Below, piece after piece: positions 9,404-23,133 of a DNA stretch of 23,133 bases. The notes under the pieces are model-generated. The model saw only the letters and a list, made by a program, of their open reading frames with translations, ran no database searches and was not told the DNA's origin. This DNA comes from a virus: positions 1-23,133 of the IMG/VR virus record IMGVR_UViG_3300027736_000262. One strand, given 5' to 3'. The position numbers and the translations under genes are program-made. The stretch's first letter is position 1, and each line of letters starts with the position of its first letter.

Positions 9404-12400
9404 TCAAAAAAACATCAAAAAGTTGCCATTGTTACGGGTTAGAAAGTTCCACCCCGTATTATTACCGCTATTGGTCGAACTATATGCGTTCCATGTTCCA
9501 CCCGTAGCCGTTGAGTCTTGGATGTTTAAATAGTCTACATCTGTAATACCGCTTGCCTTTGTGATTGTCCTTGCCGTTGCTGGCGTATTACTGTTTAAAA
9601 CGACTAGGTTTCCTGCTGTTCCATTGACGTTGAAATTGGTAACTGTAAATGCGGTTGTACAAGAATTGGTAATAGTGCAAGGCGATACTGTGTTGTTTAA
9701 TGTTGTACATCTTGCTAATGTACTACCCGTAGAAAGACCTAAATAAAGCGTTCCACCTAACCCTGACATAGTAATTGTGCCATATAAATTACCACCTCCA
9801 GTACCCGCACCGCCAGCAAAAACAGCAGAACCTGTTGTTGTAAACACAATGGTTGAGTTTGCTACATCGTAAGTTGTTCCTGTATTAGAGCCAACAAACC
9901 CTGATGTACTTGTGCCGCCAGTTATTGTTACAGTAGATGTTCCAAGTGTTAATGTTTTTGTGTTTGCATTACTAAAGTTAAATGTTCCGCAAGTAACGCT
10001 ATATCCGTTTGTTTGTAAAGTCCCTGTACTTAATGTTATTGTCTTTGTAGCCCCTGTTACAAACGCATCTTGCAAGCTGTAGGTTGCTGTTCCGTTTAAA
10101 TTAATTGCAGAATCCATAGCAGTACCAGCTAGGGTAATCTGCTGTGTTCCTGATGTTGCACTAAAAGATGTTGTGCCTGTACCTGATACATGGCTCATCG
10201 TACTACTGCAAGTAAAGTTTCCAAATATTGTTCTGCCATTACTTGCTAAAGCACCAGCAAATCCAGTAGTAAATATTAAATCTTTAACTGCGGTGTTTGT
10301 TGTTGAAGAAGGAAATGAGGCAATACTTCCAACTTGTCCAGCAGTAGTTGTAAAGTTTAGTGCGTTGCTTTCTGTTGCCCCTGCTGTACTTCCAAACTGT
10401 ACTGTTCTTGTTATTCCCGATGCAATATCACCTGTAAGGTTAATTGCTGATGTGCCTGTGTAGGTAAAGTTTGTAGCAGTACCCATACCCAAAACTGTAG
10501 CTGTACCTGTATTAGTAAGCGTAATTTTTCCATTAGTACCAAACAATATAGAGCGAGTATTTGTATTGCTTGAACTAAATGCACCAAAAATAGTTAGCGT
10601 TTTATCGTTTAAATCTAGCGTACCGCTTGTAAGTGTTAGGTTTCTTGCTGTTGTTGTACCTACTGTTAAAGCGTCTTGCAATTGCCATGAACCGCCTACT
10701 CCATTAAATGTAATAGGAAAATCAAGCGTATTACTATTAGTAGTTATTGTTCTTACTGTTGCATTTGTTGAGGCAAATGTTGTTGTATTAGTACCAGCAG
10801 TTAATGTCATGCCAGTTGGAAATAATAAGTTTCCATAAATTGACAAAGTTGCGTTTGTCATTGTTCCTGTAAAACCAGCAAAACTAAGATTTAAAAATCC
10901 ACCACCAATAGAAATAGTGTCGCTTCCAGCAGAAATAGTAAAAGACAAAGAATTTATTTCGGTTTGTCCCGTAGTATTACCAAATGTTATTGTTCTTGTA
11001 ATTCCTGACCCTGCATTACCCGTTATATTAACAGTAGGTGTTCCTGTATAAGTAAAATTGGTAGCAGTTGTCATACCAAAAATTGTTGATGTACCTGTAA
11101 AAGTATTTGTAATGTTTCCAGTACCAAATGCTATTGTTCTTGTATTTGAATTAGAAGAACTAAAAGCACCAAAATGAGTAAATGTATTGCCGTCTAAATC
11201 CAATGTTCCGTTTGTTAAAGTAACTCCTCTACCAGTAGCAGTTCCTACATTTAAAGCACCAACTAATTTCCAAGTGCCTCCAACACCATCAAATGTAAGT
11301 GGAAAATCTAGATTATTTCCATTGGTTGTGATTGTTCTTACTGTTGCACTTGTTGATGCAAATGTGGTTGATGATGTTCCTGCGGTTAAAGTTATGCCTG
11401 ATGGTAATGTTAAATTTCCGTAAATAGACCTAGTGTTATTTGCTAATGTTCCTGTAAAACTTGTTAAATTAACATTTAAAAATCCGCCTTGCAGACTTAC
11501 AGTATCGCTACCAGCAGACACGTTAACAGTTATTGAGTTTGTTTCAGTTTGTCCTGCTGTATTACCATGAGATATAGTTCTTGTAAATGCACCAGTAGAA
11601 TTTCCAGTTATATTAACAGTAGGTGTTCCTGTATAGGTAAACCCTGTTGCGGTTTGCATACCCCAAACTCCTGCCGTTGCTATTGAATATGTGTTTGTAT
11701 AATTTCCACCATTAAAAACTATCGCTCTTGTGTTTGAATTATTTGATGCCCACAAACCAAAGTTAGTTAATGTAAAACCAGCCAAATCCAACGTACCACT
11801 TGTTAGTGTAATTGTTCTACTTGTAGCAGTTCCAACGCTTAAAGCATCTTGCAATTGATAAGTAGCAGTACCCGAAAATGTAATTGGAAAATCTAGGTTT
11901 AATGCCGCAGAAGTAATTAATTGAGTTCCGCTAGTAGCGGCAAAGGTAGTTACACTAGCACCAGCCGATAATGTCATGCCCGATTTAAGAGTTAAATTTC
12001 CGTAAAGAGTTCTAGTCCCGTTGGTTAAATTTCCTGTGTATGTTCCAGCAAAAGTTAAATTTTTAACAGAGCCAGATACACCAATCGCATTAGAGGCGGC
12101 ATTGTTAATGGTAAAACTAATTGAATTGGCTTCTGTAACAGATGCTGGCAATAAAGTTAATGTTCCTGTACCAGTAATATTAATTAATGGCGTACCCGTT
12201 ACAGAATGAGTAGTTGCCCCTGTAAATACGCCAGTACCACTACCCGCACACGTTATGCTATTAGTACCAAACGCCAATGTCCCCGTAAATCCTGTCATTG
12301 TCAGAGTTGAGCAAATAGCCGTACCCGACCCAATTGTTACAGTATTAGCACCTGATGCGGCATCAAAGAAAACAGTATCCGAAGATGTGGGTACAGTTTG

Positions 12401-12490
12401 ACCGCCAGCACCGCCAGAAGTCAAAGCCCATTTAGTTCCAGCAGTAGCATCCCATGTAGCCGCACCGCCAACCCAATATCTTGCCGCCAT
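9404..12490 (-). CDS. Giant repetitive Thr/Gly/Ser-rich beta protein, adhesin- or fibre-like
   Basis: A 1028-aa protein dominated by Thr, Gly, Ser and Asn. It opens with MAARYWVGGAATWDATAGTK (1-20) and SSDTVFFDAASGA, an N-terminal module I have seen in phage and bacterial surface proteins. From residue 163 it consists of about four long repeats starting at 163, 357, 552 and 756. Each begins [YF]GN[LF] and contains TFA-T-S, LDFP-TF, GTLDL, a NTR block and, in the first three, FTYTGT (about 194, 195 and 204 aa in those three). The pattern suggests a long beta-solenoid, as in autotransporter adhesins. The C-terminus (GNNTGWNFLTRNNGNFLMFF) is distinct. There is no signal peptide or catalytic motif. 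Likely an extended virion fibre. The start overlaps the previous stop as TAATG. Confidence 0.85.
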   Translation of the reverse strand: MAARYWVGGAATWDATAGTKWALTSGGAGGQTVPTSSDTVFFDAASGANTVTIGSGTAICSTLTMTGFTGTLAFGTNSITCAGSGTGVFTGATTHSVTGTPLINITGTGTLTLLPASVTEANSISFTINNAASNAIGVSGSVKNLTFAGTYTGNLTNGTRTLYGNLTLKSGMTLSAGASVTTFAATSGTQLITSAALNLDFPITFSGTATYQLQDALSVGTATSRTITLTSGTLDLAGFTLTNFGLWASNNSNTRAIVFNGGNYTNTYSIATAGVWGMQTATGFTYTGTPTVNITGNSTGAFTRTISHGNTAGQTETNSITVNVSAGSDTVSLQGGFLNVNLTSFTGTLANNTRSIYGNLTLPSGITLTAGTSSTTFASTSATVRTITTNGNNLDFPLTFDGVGGTWKLVGALNVGTATGRGVTLTNGTLDLDGNTFTHFGAFSSSNSNTRTIAFGTGNITNTFTGTSTIFGMTTATNFTYTGTPTVNITGNAGSGITRTITFGNTTGQTEINSLSFTISAGSDTISIGGGFLNLSFAGFTGTMTNATLSIYGNLLFPTGMTLTAGTNTTTFASTNATVRTITTNSNTLDFPITFNGVGGSWQLQDALTVGTTTARNLTLTSGTLDLNDKTLTIFGAFSSSNTNTRSILFGTNGKITLTNTGTATVLGMGTATNFTYTGTSAINLTGDIASGITRTVQFGSTAGATESNALNFTTTAGQVGSIASFPSSTTNTAVKDLIFTTGFAGALASNGRTIFGNFTCSSTMSHVSGTGTTSFSATSGTQQITLAGTAMDSAINLNGTATYSLQDAFVTGATKTITLSTGTLQTNGYSVTCGTFNFSNANTKTLTLGTSTVTITGGTSTSGFVGSNTGTTYDVANSTIVFTTTGSAVFAGGAGTGGGNLYGTITMSGLGGTLYLGLSTGSTLARCTTLNNTVSPCTITNSCTTAFTVTNFNVNGTAGNLVVLNSNTPATARTITKASGITDVDYLNIQDSTATGGTWNAYSSTNSGNNTGWNFLTRNNGNFLMFF
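10226..12004 (-). repeat. Three long in-gene coding repeats (plus a diverged fourth copy downstream)
   Basis: Tandem units run 12004-11423, 11422-10838 and 10837-10226. A fourth, more diverged unit starts at 10225. The boundary is the codon run for Y/F-G-N-L/F. Units 2 and 3 are the most alike (shared TFAST-ATVRTITTN, LDFP-TF-GVGG, FGAFSSSN). Unit 1 differs more, and unit 4 lacks the FTYTGT block. Confidence 0.85.
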
Positions 12491-15637: not shown

Positions 15638-17737
15638 TTACCTTATTGATTCGCCAATTGTGTTACCAAAGGGGTCGGAATAGTCTAATGCGCCTAAACC
15701 TAGTGTACCAGCAGGGATTGCAGTAAACAATGGTTGACCTTCTTTGACTGCCTTACGCATCTCTGGGGTTATGTCTAGGTATCTTACTGGCTCTTGTTTC
15801 GTTGTTGGAATCATGCTGTTTTCAGCGCGTTCTTTAACTGTATTTACTTTAGTCTCACCTACTTGTGCGCCATACTTCTTACCTAGTTTGTTTAAGTAAT
15901 TAGGGTAAATCTCATCGTAATACTTTTTCATTCCCTCACCGCCAACTTGCAGATCAACACCCCTTAAGGTCATACGTCCACCGCCAGATTGACCTTCGCC
16001 TTTAATAATCTTTTCAGCAATCTCTTTTCCAACAATTTCAGGAAGTTCTTTTGCTGAGTAATATTCTTTTGGCAAATCTATGCCTTGTTGATTTTTGTCA
16101 ACAATCCCTAAACGGTATTTGGCGCTATCGCCATAGCCAGATGTTTTGTAATCAATGTAATCAACTTGCTTACTCAAATCATATCTTGCAGCTTGTTGCG
16201 CACCAGTAGTCAAGCCTATGCGGTCATAGCCCTTGTCCACAGCCTCTTTAATTGCTCTCTTTAGTGCTAGTTGATGCCATGTGTCTTTGAAGGGGGCATC
16301 GGGAACACCCCCAGATTTTCCAGAAACCAATGGCTGCAACTCTTTAACCCGCGCCATTTCTTGAGGTGTTAATTTTTGCCCATTTGCATTTCTTATAACT
16401 AAAAGCTCATATTCTTTTAACGCACTTTCTAATTGTGGCGTTTTGTACCCCTTCTCCCGCCCCGCCTGATGCCAATCTGACTGCACTTCCTCAATCAATA
16501 GCATCTTTTTGCCTTCAGCATCGACGCGATCATTGACCCTCATGTGGGCTAGGATGTTTGGTTCGTCAAAGTGGGATGATTTGTAAGACTCAAGGTTTTC
16601 TCTAAAACCTTTAAGATTATTTGCAGTTTTTAACAGTTGTTCTTGTGCTTCTTCTTGTGTTCTGAAACCTTGACTTCTTGATGTTGGTGTTTCTGCAAAA
16701 TATTTAACTGTTCCATCATCGTACTGCATAGGTGTAACCTGATACCCTTTTGGCATAACAGGTTCTTTAAATGGCAAAGTCAACAATATCTCACGGTAGT
16801 TCTCCCCACCAGGCAATTGATATTTGTCGTATTTGCTAGGGCCGTAAGGAATTTGTGAATTAAATTGTTTTACAAAGTTATCCGCTTCTTCGGCTGTGTT
16901 AAATGCGCCATGTAAGGATAAGTCATTTCCATAAACAATGAATTGGTTTTTATCAGGATTAAATTCACTAAACACGCCAGACTTTTCACCTCTGCCTGAT
17001 AACACACGCTCTTGTAAATTGAGGCGGTTGTTAGCAATAAAGTCTTGCACCTCTTGCTTGGTGACGTTTGGCTTATTAGCAAGAAAATCATCTAGACCAG
17101 TCCATGACAACTCATCTTTCTTAACATCAGGTGACTTCATCAGATCATTAAGAAAAGCCTGACCTGTACCCTTGTTCCTTGGTAAGTTCAATGCCGCCTG
17201 TTCAGCCGCTGAATAGAACCCTAGTTCAGACACCTGGGCTTGAGGTTTTGGCATAGATAAACTAGGTTCAACAGCCATCATAGGCTTCATTGCCGTAGGA
17301 ATTACGTTAGCCAAAGAACCCTCATTGCCATACATTCCACGAGCTAACTCGGACAATGCAACATTACCAACCTTACCAACCGCCCTTGCAATAGGTGCAG
17401 GGTTTAGCGGGACAAATGAGCCAAGCTGATTAGCAACCTGACCTACCTGACTGGTTGGTGGTAGTGGCAAATTTTGTAAATAGTATTCTGAACCATACGG
17501 AACTTCAGGGGCAATCTTGCCGTAAGACTCTAACGCTTGAACAGCCTCCGCAGGCAGTAAAGACCTCTTGAGGTTTAGCAAATCAGGTATCGCCCCTAGC
17601 AATCCCACAATCCTTCCACGCAATACGTCTGCTGGAATATCGGCAGATGCTTGTGGGTCTTGCATAGTTCTTCGCCCACCCATTTGTGGGTAGATTCCAA
17701 ATGCCGCACCGCCCCCACCAAACAAACCATCTGCCAT
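15638..17737 (-). CDS. Large conserved-domain protein of the phage polyvalent-protein type, between terminase and portal
   Basis: A 699-aa protein. Residues 1-30 are Gly-rich, and 31-160 are low in recognisable motifs. Residues 171-237 carry ELGFYSAAEQAALNLPRNKG then ELSWTGLDDFLANKPNVTKQ, a domain I recall from phage polyvalent proteins. Residues about 388-530 hold a second, highly conserved-looking block: HFDEPNILAHMRVNDRVDAE, IEEVQSDWHQAGREKGY, TWHQLALKRAI and IGLTTGAQQAARYDLSK. Residues 600-627 (GEGMKKYYDEIYPNYLNKLG) belong to the same type. Invariant-looking H389, E417, Q419, D421, W422 and H423 hint at an enzyme, but no function is established to my knowledge. It lies two bases after the large terminase gene. 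Delivery with the genome into the host is possible inference. Confidence 0.8.
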   Translation of the reverse strand: MADGLFGGGGAAFGIYPQMGGRRTMQDPQASADIPADVLRGRIVGLLGAIPDLLNLKRSLLPAEAVQALESYGKIAPEVPYGSEYYLQNLPLPPTSQVGQVANQLGSFVPLNPAPIARAVGKVGNVALSELARGMYGNEGSLANVIPTAMKPMMAVEPSLSMPKPQAQVSELGFYSAAEQAALNLPRNKGTGQAFLNDLMKSPDVKKDELSWTGLDDFLANKPNVTKQEVQDFIANNRLNLQERVLSGRGEKSGVFSEFNPDKNQFIVYGNDLSLHGAFNTAEEADNFVKQFNSQIPYGPSKYDKYQLPGGENYREILLTLPFKEPVMPKGYQVTPMQYDDGTVKYFAETPTSRSQGFRTQEEAQEQLLKTANNLKGFRENLESYKSSHFDEPNILAHMRVNDRVDAEGKKMLLIEEVQSDWHQAGREKGYKTPQLESALKEYELLVIRNANGQKLTPQEMARVKELQPLVSGKSGGVPDAPFKDTWHQLALKRAIKEAVDKGYDRIGLTTGAQQAARYDLSKQVDYIDYKTSGYGDSAKYRLGIVDKNQQGIDLPKEYYSAKELPEIVGKEIAEKIIKGEGQSGGGRMTLRGVDLQVGGEGMKKYYDEIYPNYLNKLGKKYGAQVGETKVNTVKERAENSMIPTTKQEPVRYLDITPEMRKAVKEGQPLFTAIPAGTLGLGALDYSDPFGNTIGESIR

Positions 17738-20016: not shown

Positions 20017-20259
20017 CTAATCCTCACTAGAATCCTCTTGGTTGCCTTGAATCACATCATCAATACTCAAGGCTACCTCAATCGAACTGAGTGGCATGAT
20101 GGGTCTAAATCCAAGACTCCACACATGACTGTAAACATCCATCAGTTCCCGAAACCCATCGGAGATATTCCCATTTCCTGCGGCAATCAAAATCTGCAAC
20201 TCCTCAACACCCAAAGTCCTTTGGAAATACCGAGTAGTTCTCTTGGGTGGTCTAACCAT
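20017..20259 (-). CDS. Small protein with a ribbon-helix-helix-like pattern, possible regulator
   Basis: An 80-aa protein. Basic residues at the N-terminus (RPPKRTTR) lead into a short strand (RYFQRTLG), a helix (VEELQILIAAG), then GNISDGFRELMDVYSHVW, where a turn with N-I-S starts a second helix. This strand-helix-helix order and the S-x-G-[FIV]-R string resemble Arc/MetJ-type repressors. The acidic tail (NQEDSSED) is disordered. The call is tentative. It begins in an 8-nt ATGGTTAG overlap with the 222-aa gene and is the last gene before the control region, where a palindromic operator candidate lies. Confidence 0.65.
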   Translation of the reverse strand: MVRPPKRTTRYFQRTLGVEELQILIAAGNGNISDGFRELMDVYSHVWSLGFRPIMPLSSIEVALSIDDVIQGNQEDSSED

Positions 20260-20920
20260 CTTTGAACCTCTCAGCGTGTTTAGTGTTAAACAGAACAGGC
20301 AACTGGCTTGGCTCGCTAAAGTCTAGGTCTGACTGAATATCATCGAAACCAGTCAAGTTCACCAGCTTGGCATGACCATACATTCTCTTAGCCTCAACCA
20401 CATCTTTTAATACTGGTGACTTCAACAACTCTTCAATCTCGGCCATTGTCCAAACATGACAATCTCTTGTATCTTTAATGCTCGAATCAACAAAACGAGT
20501 TGGCTTAACCCTAAACTGCTCAAACATCTTGGCATCCATCTCCGACTTAACAACCACCATCACAGACCCATCACCCATCTGATGCTCAAACACCGAAATA
20601 TCAGGCATCGGGTCAACTCCATAAATTAATGCCCAATCCTCCAAAAACCCAAATGCTCTAATCATTCCCTGAACTGCTCGGTCAAACTTTTCAATGTCCT
20701 TGGACTGCTGACCAACCCAAACTCTTTGACTTTGCAACCAAAATTTCTCTCTAAGTTCATTGTCTACTAAAGTTAACAATCTACCAACACCAAATTTCTG
20801 CTCATGCTTGTCTTTAACTTCTATCAAATTAACCAACAAACTGTTGGCATGAACATCAAAATCCGACATCGGAAACTTCACCTCAATTGGACTTGGAATA
20901 ATCTGTTTTTTCTTAATCAT
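20252..20920 (-). CDS. Hypothetical protein of the replication region (222 aa)
   Basis: The ATG at 20920 is preferred over the GTG one codon earlier because AAAGG stands eight bases upstream of it; both are possible. The protein begins MIKKKQIIPSPIEVKFPMSD and continues mostly helical and charged (HEQKFGVGRLLTLVDNELRE; KFDRAVQGMIRAFGFLEDWA). An acidic C-terminal part contains DIQSDLDFSEPSQLPVLFNT. I recognise no family, Cys motif, signal peptide or membrane segment. Its place after the primase-helicase suggests a role in replication or early takeover. The stop overlaps the next gene by 8 nt. Confidence 0.8.
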   Translation of the reverse strand: MIKKKQIIPSPIEVKFPMSDFDVHANSLLVNLIEVKDKHEQKFGVGRLLTLVDNELREKFWLQSQRVWVGQQSKDIEKFDRAVQGMIRAFGFLEDWALIYGVDPMPDISVFEHQMGDGSVMVVVKSEMDAKMFEQFRVKPTRFVDSSIKDTRDCHVWTMAEIEELLKSPVLKDVVEAKRMYGHAKLVNLTGFDDIQSDLDFSEPSQLPVLFNTKHAERFKDG

Positions 20921-20964
20921 CACAAAAACCTTTCAAAATCTCAAAATCAATTACAGACAGACAA

Positions 20965-21069
20965 AACCCGACATCGACACGACAGACAACACAACTCTAA
21001 AGAGTTTTGTTGTTGTCTGTCGGTATGCCGACACAATACAACACCGACATTTGTCGGCTTTGTCGGGTT
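20965..21069. repeat. Nested inverted repeats built on CCGACA/TGTCGG
   Basis: Six copies of one hexamer occur in about 100 bases: CCGACA at 20968, 21028 and 21044; TGTCGG at 21018, 21052 and 21061. The outer pair extends to a 9-bp inverted repeat (AACCCGACA 20965-20973, TGTCGGGTT 21061-21069). Inside are an interrupted long hairpin (20981-21021: 11-bp base, 5-bp apex, TAAA loop) and two short hairpins (21018-21033, 21044-21057). It fills the spacer between the primase-helicase and the 222-aa gene. Confidence 0.85.
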
Positions 21070-21079
21070 GTGGTAGTAA

Positions 21080-23133
21080 CTAATCATTACTTCTATACCC
21101 AACATCCACAGGTTGCATATCCGCATCCTCATCCAAGATGTAGGCATACTTGACCCCATCTTTGTCCCCAAGCCTGACTGGTGACCCCGATTTAGTAGCC
21201 CTATCAAACCCCGTTGCGAGTGTTTCAGACGATGTTGATGATGGCTTTCTTGACTTAAATTCAGACCTTAAATCGGCCTCCAAACACACATATTTGGGTC
21301 TTTCATCGAACCACTTTATGTTATCTTTCTTATTAGTGAGTGTTTTCACAATTTCATACGCTAAACGCTGATTTTCACCAGTTCCAACATTCTTTTTGCG
21401 ACCACCTTGACCACCTTTTTTAGCCGCCTCAACTGTCTCAGGTGACGGCCTAACGGCCAAACTCATCACCGAGTCAATGCCCAAAGAGCCAACAGAAATC
21501 TCCACAGACACCACCTCAAATCCAATTGGTTTGCCGTCTTCACCATCCTTTTGCTTGGTCACAGTCAATATCCCTTGACCAGCTACATCACCATTTTTGC
21601 GGGAAACTGCATCCTTAAACGATATTGCGTTATCAACCCTGACAATCTCCAACTCTGTATCCACAGCACCCAACAGAGAACTATGTCCTCTTAAACCTCG
21701 ACTAACATCCTTACCCGAATGGTGAATGGCCATCAAAGCACAGTTGTAATACTGCATCAACTCACCCATCTTGTTGACTATCATGCCCATATCTTCAGAC
21801 GAGTTCTCGTTAAACCCACCTCCCGAAGCCCTCATCAGGGTATCAACAATAATCAAATCAATAGTCCAATTGCGTTCTAGCAACACCTCGTTAACCGATT
21901 CAATCAGGGCAAGGTAATCCTCATCTGATGACCTGAGATTAATCTGATGCCTAACAATTAAGATGGGTTCAGACCCATCCGAGTCCTTAAATATCTTTAG
22001 TGCCTTAACCCTTGCACCCATACCACCAAAACCCTCACCCGCCAAGTAAAGGATGCAACCCTGCCGTCTCTCGCCATCCATCGTTGGGTTCGTTGCGTGT
22101 CCCATCCAGTCCTCACCACTTGCTATTGAGTGAGCCATATCAAGTGCCACAAAAGACTTGAAGCTGGCGGGTGGTGCGTACATAGCCACAAAAGACTTCT
22201 TAGGGATAATCCCTTCAATAAGCCACTCCAACTTCTCATCCTGAATCTGATTCCAATCCTCGACCTTAAATCTTTTAGTGGCCACAGGAGTTGCCTCAAC
22301 TGTCGCAACTGTCGCACCTTCTACATCTACAACATCTTCTCTTGCAACCTCAAGTGGTGGCACACCATCCTCGTCCAATTGCATACCCGAATCAACCGAA
22401 CCCACAACATACCTCTGTGGTATAACAAAGTCATCAACTGTCAATATTTGAGGGGCATCCTTTACCCTTTTAATCAGGTCATCCTTAGTGTTCCCATCCA
22501 TCACAAACTCAAAGGCATCGTCACCATCAAAGGGAAGTTCGTCCAATACCCTGAGAGATGCCGCAACACCCACCAAAGAAGATACAACCTTCTTTGCGTA
22601 ACTCCAACCAGCCGTGTCACAGTCAGGCACTACGCACACCTTTGCACCTGCAAAGTAATCAATTACAACTTCAGGGAAACTCGATGCACCCGCATGAGTG
22701 CAAGTTGCCTGTAAGCCAAGTGCAACTAATGCGTCTGCTGACTTCTCGCCCTCACAGATAAAGATGGTCTTACCCTCACCAATAGCCAACAACAACTTAG
22801 GCAACCTGTAGGGAACAATCCTCACATCTGCCAATGTGTACTTCTTCTGACCATTAGGCATCAACTGACAGTTCCTGTAAGTCTTGCCCTTGGCATCATT
22901 TGTTTTATAGCGTTCCTTGATGAATAGAGTCTGACCATCCTCATCTGTGTAGTGCCACTCAGCCTCCAGGTCACGGGTCTTGACCACCTCAACAGGCTTG
23001 GGCAAAGGTTTCACATTAGCCAAGGGTTCATACTTCTCTGATTGAGGCAGAAGTCCTAATGACCTTATAGTGTCAAACACATTGCGCTGTTCACATCCGC
23101 TAAAGCACTTAAATAAATAATTCCCATCATCTC
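21080..23133 (-). CDS. Primase-helicase: zinc motif, TOPRIM and RecA-like helicase (5'-truncated by window edge)
   Basis: The frame is open to the right edge. A GTG at 23080 can be read as a start, but the 17 codons before it encode DDGNYLFKCFSGCEQRN, the Cys pair of a primase zinc-binding domain, so the true start lies outside. Counting from that GTG: TOPRIM spans about 104-180 with E110 in CEGEKSADAL and D153/D155 in VPDCDTAG. A linker runs to about 270. A RecA-like hexameric helicase follows with Walker A APPASFKS (302-309), Walker B LIIVDT (409-414) and AIHHSGKD (451-458), as in RepA/AAA_25 proteins. The C-terminus may hold a winged helix. It would make primers and unwind DNA at the phage fork, as T7 gp4-type fusions do. 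Confidence 0.92.
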   Translation of the reverse strand, partial: DDGNYLFKCFSGCEQRNVFDTIRSLGLLPQSEKYEPLANVKPLPKPVEVVKTRDLEAEWHYTDEDGQTLFIKERYKTNDAKGKTYRNCQLMPNGQKKYTLADVRIVPYRLPKLLLAIGEGKTIFICEGEKSADALVALGLQATCTHAGASSFPEVVIDYFAGAKVCVVPDCDTAGWSYAKKVVSSLVGVAASLRVLDELPFDGDDAFEFVMDGNTKDDLIKRVKDAPQILTVDDFVIPQRYVVGSVDSGMQLDEDGVPPLEVAREDVVDVEGATVATVEATPVATKRFKVEDWNQIQDEKLEWLIEGIIPKKSFVAMYAPPASFKSFVALDMAHSIASGEDWMGHATNPTMDGERRQGCILYLAGEGFGGMGARVKALKIFKDSDGSEPILIVRHQINLRSSDEDYLALIESVNEVLLERNWTIDLIIVDTLMRASGGGFNENSSEDMGMIVNKMGELMQYYNCALMAIHHSGKDVSRGLRGHSSLLGAVDTELEIVRVDNAISFKDAVSRKNGDVAGQGILTVTKQKDGEDGKPIGFEVVSVEISVGSLGIDSVMSLAVRPSPETVEAAKKGGQGGRKKNVGTGENQRLAYEIVKTLTNKKDNIKWFDERPKYVCLEADLRSEFKSRKPSSTSSETLATGFDRATKSGSPVRLGDKDGVKYAYILDEDADMQPVDVGYRSND

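Follow-up and report, generated by a model that had tools for sequence, protein, structure and literature searches.

Gene order and the CCGACA array

The array described here is found in a 23,133-nucleotide viral DNA (IMG/VR record IMGVR_UViG_3300027736_000262; "the window" denotes this whole stretch), in the spacer between the gene of a primase-helicase and that of a 222-residue protein (Table 1). In Pfam, the helicase matches AAA_25 (E 5e-34) only and no SF3 helicase family. The 222-aa protein belongs to a conserved family, is made up of a three-helix bundle and a small alpha/beta part, and its gene immediately follows the array at nearly all loci, those of the cultivated phages included.

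Table 1. Coordinates of the array, its flanking genes and two further genes of the window
Feature	Position	Strand	Basis
Intergenic spacer with array, probable replication origin	20924–21079		Synteny in 187/189 relatives
Primase-helicase, 666 aa	21080–23080	-	AAA_25 at residues 265–458; PHROG primase/helicase matches
Helicase C-terminal winged-helix domain, predicted word reader	21137–21376	-	AlphaFold2 model, Foldseek MecI/BlaI, coevolution
Predicted recognition helix, model residues 81–92	21194–21229	-	Contains the residue predictive of the base preceding ACAA in relatives
222/223-aa gene, conserved orphan family, directly downstream of array	20252–20923	-	Synteny
CCGACA array, six CCGACA/TGTCGG words within 9-bp inverted repeat	20965–21069		Word count, shuffles
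CCGACA word copy	20968–20973	+	Word count
CCGACA word copy	21018–21023	-	Word count
CCGACA word copy	21028–21033	+	Word count
CCGACA word copy	21044–21049	+	Word count
CCGACA word copy	21052–21057	-	Word count
CCGACA word copy	21061–21066	-	Word count
Terminal long hairpin, word-like arms and separate tip stem	20980–21022	-	Opposite-strand self-match, folding, counterpart of covarying hairpin
699-aa protein, between terminase and portal genes	15638–17737	-	PHROG endolysin match phrog_7348
1028-aa protein, highly repetitive, Thr/Gly/Ser-rich; probably structural/fibre	9404–12490	-	

The hexamer CCGACA (TGTCGG on the other strand) occurs six times within 105 bp, three times in each orientation, and the outermost copies are part of a 9-bp inverted repeat (AACCCGACA, 20965–20973, and TGTCGGGTT, 21061–21069). 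The entire record contains ten copies; one of the four that lie outside the array is located at 20863 within the 222-aa gene and three are elsewhere. Across the window, CCGACA ranks first among hexamers, with every other hexamer at four or fewer. It never exceeded two copies per 105 bp in 200 dinucleotide shuffles, and the maximum for any hexamer was five per 105 bp in 60 shuffles, compared to the six observed. The spacer also folds strongly. The minus (sense) strand folded as RNA has an energy of -58.8 kcal/mol (z = -6.8), the plus strand folded as DNA has a z-score of -6.1, and neither value was reached by any shuffle. The excess of the hexamer over chance and the outer inverted repeat, both reported in an earlier note on this DNA, are borne out. 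On the sense strand, the outer repeat is followed by a run of four T only.

Related phages carry arrays of other words at the same place

IMG/VR contains many relatives of the window helicase with 41–47% identity, and helicase scans yielded a set of 189 distinct viral loci with readable downstream DNA. The order of primase-helicase, repeat-rich spacer and 222-aa gene is kept in 187 of them, where homology to the 222-aa family begins 46–352 nt past the helicase stop codon. The gap is occupied by a compact array of one short word in direct and inverted orientation, which hardly occurs elsewhere in the locus. The word itself depends on the clade (GGACAAA, GTCTACAT, GTTACAAA, GTAACAAA, GAGACA or GATAGA, and further ACGAAT, CGAATC, GTCAAA, ATCAGA and TCGGAA), and CCGACA was not found as the array word of any other sampled phage. 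The earlier note had looked to related phages for both the hexamers and their pairing: the hexamer is absent from them, but an array of their own word, with pairing, is located at the same place.

The array is present, syntenic and found about once per genome, and in nine of ten long contigs, which may be fragments, the word clusters at the spacer downstream of the helicase and nowhere else. One contig (G013:C1) has four further GGACA words that form a weak additional cluster (oriented position 32587–32719) far from the main array. The spacers of six loci (L060, L062, L074, L301, L303 and L051) exceed the others by 80–130 nt and contain a hairpin-like insert as well as an array that is duplicated or split; TTAGGCA recurs in those of L062 and L051, and TAGGCA is present in that of L303.

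No nucleotide-level relatives were found among isolate phages, and GTDB genomes and plasmids gave only weak matches (about 25–34% identity), mainly to the AAA core. There is no intergenic gap after the helicase of Microcystis phage Mae-JY30, and no array is visible in the gap after repA in MW202711, which shows that distant RepA-type helicases do not all have this layout.

Among cultivated phages, the nearest relatives found are Roseobacter phages CRP-811, -821, -822, -823 and -831. Isolate homologues are annotated as helicases of the RepA family. A homologue of the 222-aa family follows the array in the CRP phages as well (hhalign probability 90). The words occupy matching relative positions in the arrays of CRP-823 and CRP-821, and in both genomes (29–30 kb) the array is the most AT-rich stretch. 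The accessible text of the CRP-822 paper mentions no such array or origin. These isolates also bear on the idea that the array is a packaging (cos/pac) or partition site, which is suggested by the terminase genes located about 1.5 kb downstream of the array in the window. The CRP isolates have their terminase genes several kb from the array, across the end of the circular map, and the word tracks the helicase domain (see below) rather than the neighboring 222-aa protein. We consider a packaging or partition site extremely improbable.

The word follows the C-terminal domain of the helicase

The word follows only the C-terminal ~110 residues of the helicase, which are predicted to form a winged helix. 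Across 185 loci, the k-mer distance between spacers correlates with the C-terminal distance (rho 0.52, partial 0.49), whereas the partial correlations of the spacer with N-terminal, AAA and 222-aa distances are around zero or below (222-aa distances of 1.0 in this set are those of truncated contigs; an overlap filter was used in the comparison of near-identical pairs). At equal distance of the N-terminal and AAA parts (N+AAA), the C-terminal domains differ by 0.21 in same-word pairs vs 0.63 in different-word pairs. Of 305 pairs that have near-identical N+AAA parts and the same C-terminal domain, not a single one differs in the word; converse pairs, in which different C-terminal domains accompany the same word, do exist. 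By parsimony, the word changed 49 times on the N+AAA tree vs 17 times on the C-terminal tree. The 222-aa protein, whose distance does not track the word and for which no relative was found in Pfam, PHROG, the PDB or Foldseek, was rejected as the word reader and as a known initiator.

The CRP isolates display the same relationship. The word CTACAAA is common to CRP-811 and CRP-823 (11 copies), whose C-terminal domains are 96–100% identical in 50-residue blocks. In CRP-821 and CRP-831 the word is GTATAAA (10 copies) and the C-terminal domains are 98–100% identical, and the domains of the two pairs are about 70% identical to each other. Unlike this grouping, the N-terminal part of the CRP-823 helicase is nearest to that of CRP-821.

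Phages that are ~97% identical elsewhere exchange the C-terminal domain and the spacer jointly as a cassette of ~500 bp. For example, the helicases of L074 (word GGGACAAATGG) and L058 (word GGTCTACATATG) are 87–100% identical in each 40-residue block until the AAA part ends, but only 40–57% identical in the last ~110 residues. In all seven pairs inspected, the swapped tract has the same borders, from ~380 nt before the helicase stop codon to the start of the 222-aa gene (~+150), and the DNA on either side is 85–98% identical over most of its length. The domain and the array move as one recombination cassette. A second variable stretch of the helicase, at alignment residues of about 270–320 between the primase and AAA parts, is 45–65% identical in several otherwise near-identical pairs.

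A predicted winged helix and a residue-to-base code

The AlphaFold2 model of the C-terminal 129 residues of the window helicase is a winged helix with the topology H-b-b-H-H-b-b and a moderate mean pLDDT of 72. Its best Foldseek matches are winged helices of the MecI/BlaI type, at a weak E-value of 0.03. In the relatives, the predicted recognition helix contains an F-x-x-A-W motif, and residue 3 of this motif predicts the base that precedes ACAA in the word: Lys or Arg corresponds to G, Thr to T, and Met or Val to A, which holds at 137 of 142 loci. Mapped on the N+AAA tree, base and residue class show 20 changes each, and the two jointly require only 22 changes, which shows that residue and base switch together. 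L305 and L307 vs L306 come close to a minimal case, where the domains are close, Lys is replaced with Val, and GAC has become AAC or TAC in nearly every copy of the word (L306 has a K-type domain, L305 a V-type one).

The exceptions to the code are L118, L072, L307 (a mixed array), L062 (Gln) and the window itself, which combines Thr with G. The C-terminal domain of the window is only 13–30% identical to those of the relatives used. As the word of the window is unique in the sample and off the code, the claim for the window draws on its homology and layout and on its having the domain.

Physical linkage of the domain and the array inflates their association. Could linkage be all there is, with one recombination tract spanning the 3' end of the helicase gene and the spacer by chance and no functional bond between them? 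The two are adjacent and are exchanged in one tract. However, the breakpoints recur at the same places in the seven pairs, the 222-aa gene just beyond the tract stays unswapped, the three pairings of the code return in separate clades, the array never switched without the domain in the 305 pairs, and in L305/L307 vs L306 the domains differ little, yet nearly all copies of the word have changed. Linkage as the sole explanation is therefore very unlikely.

The terminal hairpin

Part of the spacer is under selection for pairing. In 22 distinct relatives, 99.7% of the pairs of the terminal hairpin are kept, and seven pairs are altered on both sides, in the word stem and in the tip stem alike. Such compensatory changes argue that pairing is selected beyond the mere inverted orientation of sites. 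Mismatches on the sense strand are G.T in 32 instances vs A.C in 12, which is suggestive only and hints at a role of the hairpin as a single strand, e.g. in priming or loading, by analogy with the ssi sites of RSF1010.

Strong folding, the compensatory pairs and the G.T excess would also suit a cis-acting structured RNA (an attenuator, an antiterminator or a translation control element) in the transcript that runs from the helicase gene to the 222-aa gene. Pairing, however, requires neither a common word across separate stems nor a match between the word and the helicase domain. The shuffle z-scores of the two strands are equal (-5.8 and -6.0), which leaves folding uninformative about the strand, and an Rfam search returned no family at the gathering threshold. 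An RNA element of this kind is quite unlikely to account for the spacer. Of the roles suggested in the earlier note, that of a structured RNA is thus not needed for the explanation, although the hairpin itself is conserved by compensatory change, and a lagging-strand primase signal is possible for the terminal hairpin only. Type III toxin-antitoxin RNAs, GGA traps of the CsrA type, HUH/REP elements and the phi29 pRNA were considered and rejected: the word sequence is not constant from clade to clade, and no matching partner protein was found.

A probable iteron-type origin read by the helicase

Taken together, the spacer is likely to be an iteron-type replication origin, in which the word is bound by the C-terminal winged helix of the primase-helicase itself. 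The remaining role proposed in the earlier note, a binding array for a replication protein, has strong support, and the predicted reader is encoded in the adjacent gene. We infer that the domain binds double-stranded DNA directly, that replication starts at the array and that the hairpin takes part in the process.

Alternatively, the array could be an operator through which the winged helix of the helicase switches the transcription of the 222-aa gene and late genes, with replication starting elsewhere. The array is located upstream of a conserved gene, and the predicted fold resembles that of repressors such as MecI and BlaI. At the spacer, cumulative GC skew does not turn; in the CRP genomes, its minimum is near the switch in gene orientation. 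On the other hand, the predicted reading domain belongs to a primase-helicase, not to a free repressor, the arrays contain up to 11 words and have an AT-rich core in CRP-821 and CRP-823, and well-studied analogues of the same layout are origins (PMC7581432, PMC4234260). An operator is improbable, if less so than the other alternatives.

If the spacer is an origin, the primase-helicase encoded just upstream would recognise the word through its C-terminal winged helix. Direct and inverted copies alike would be occupied by several protomers, which would assemble on the spacer, open the DNA and start priming. The terminal hairpin may act as a loading or priming structure.

Comparison with known replication systems

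SaPI Rep and SCCmec Cch2 belong to a helicase family that is different from that of the window. In phage P4, the alpha protein is a helicase of the SF3 type, and a second cis region, termed crr, is present. In lambda, the DNA-binding domain of O and its cognate origin iterons covary and swap as a module.

The layout is most similar to that of SaPI Rep and SCCmec Cch2, in which short repeats are located directly downstream of the helicase gene, with inverted repeats nearby, and the C-terminal domain binds these iterons (PMC7581432). Here too, the array follows the helicase gene (with the 222-aa gene next), and covariation, the cassette swap and the residue-to-base code suggest that the C-terminal domain sets the specificity for the repeat. 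Unlike the phage helicases, however, SaPI Rep and Cch2 have no primase domain of this kind, and they are carried by satellites and cassettes, not whole phages.

P4 alpha combines a bacterial-type primase and a helicase with a winged helix at the C-terminus through which it binds origin repeats (summarised in PMC4234260). The predicted C-terminal winged helix, with its weak Foldseek E-values, may be its counterpart here, but the helicase is SF3 in P4 alpha and of the AAA_25/RepA type in the window. In contrast to the additional crr region of P4, there is one array per contig in nine of the ten contigs (which may be fragments), the weak second cluster of G013 being the exception. The system is a variant with an AAA_25/RepA-type core, which sets it apart from both the P4 and SaPI families.

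In the plasmid pRN1, an essential structured non-coding origin is located directly downstream of the gene of ORF904, a replication protein with a C-terminal winged helix, and this origin is variable in sequence but conserved in structure (PMC4234260). The structured spacer and the C-terminal winged helix are similar, but pRN1 has no iterons, and its protein contains an archaeo-eukaryotic primase and an SF3 helicase. RSF1010 has a RepA-family helicase, and its origin carries iterons and hairpin priming signals, but iteron binding and priming are performed by separate proteins (RepC and RepB', respectively). There is no indication here of a separate iteron binder similar to RepC, as the word tracks the C-terminus of the helicase and not the 222-aa protein. 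In PLE RepA_N/ori modules, the binding domain and its cognate origin covary and swap, which has been tied to escape from an origin-cutting nuclease (PMC8263062). Both there and in lambda O, the reader is a separate initiator and not a primase-helicase.

Proposed origin identity in a large group of phages

These results give a probable origin and a named, predicted reader to a large, mostly uncultivated group of phages. No description of an origin was found for this group, and the accessible text of the CRP-822 paper mentions none. With about 20 events in which one residue and one base switch, the loci also represent an unusually clean natural experiment in protein-DNA recognition. They raise the question of why origin specificity changes so often, for which PLE/Odn (PMC8263062) and lambda origin decoys, where ectopic origin copies can block the phage (PMC4488673), are precedents. 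It is possible, albeit short of probable, that the origin word is a fast-evolving identity tag, and that the recognition helix and the origin have switched together ~20 times by the residue-to-base code under pressure from satellites, decoy origins or origin-targeting nucleases.
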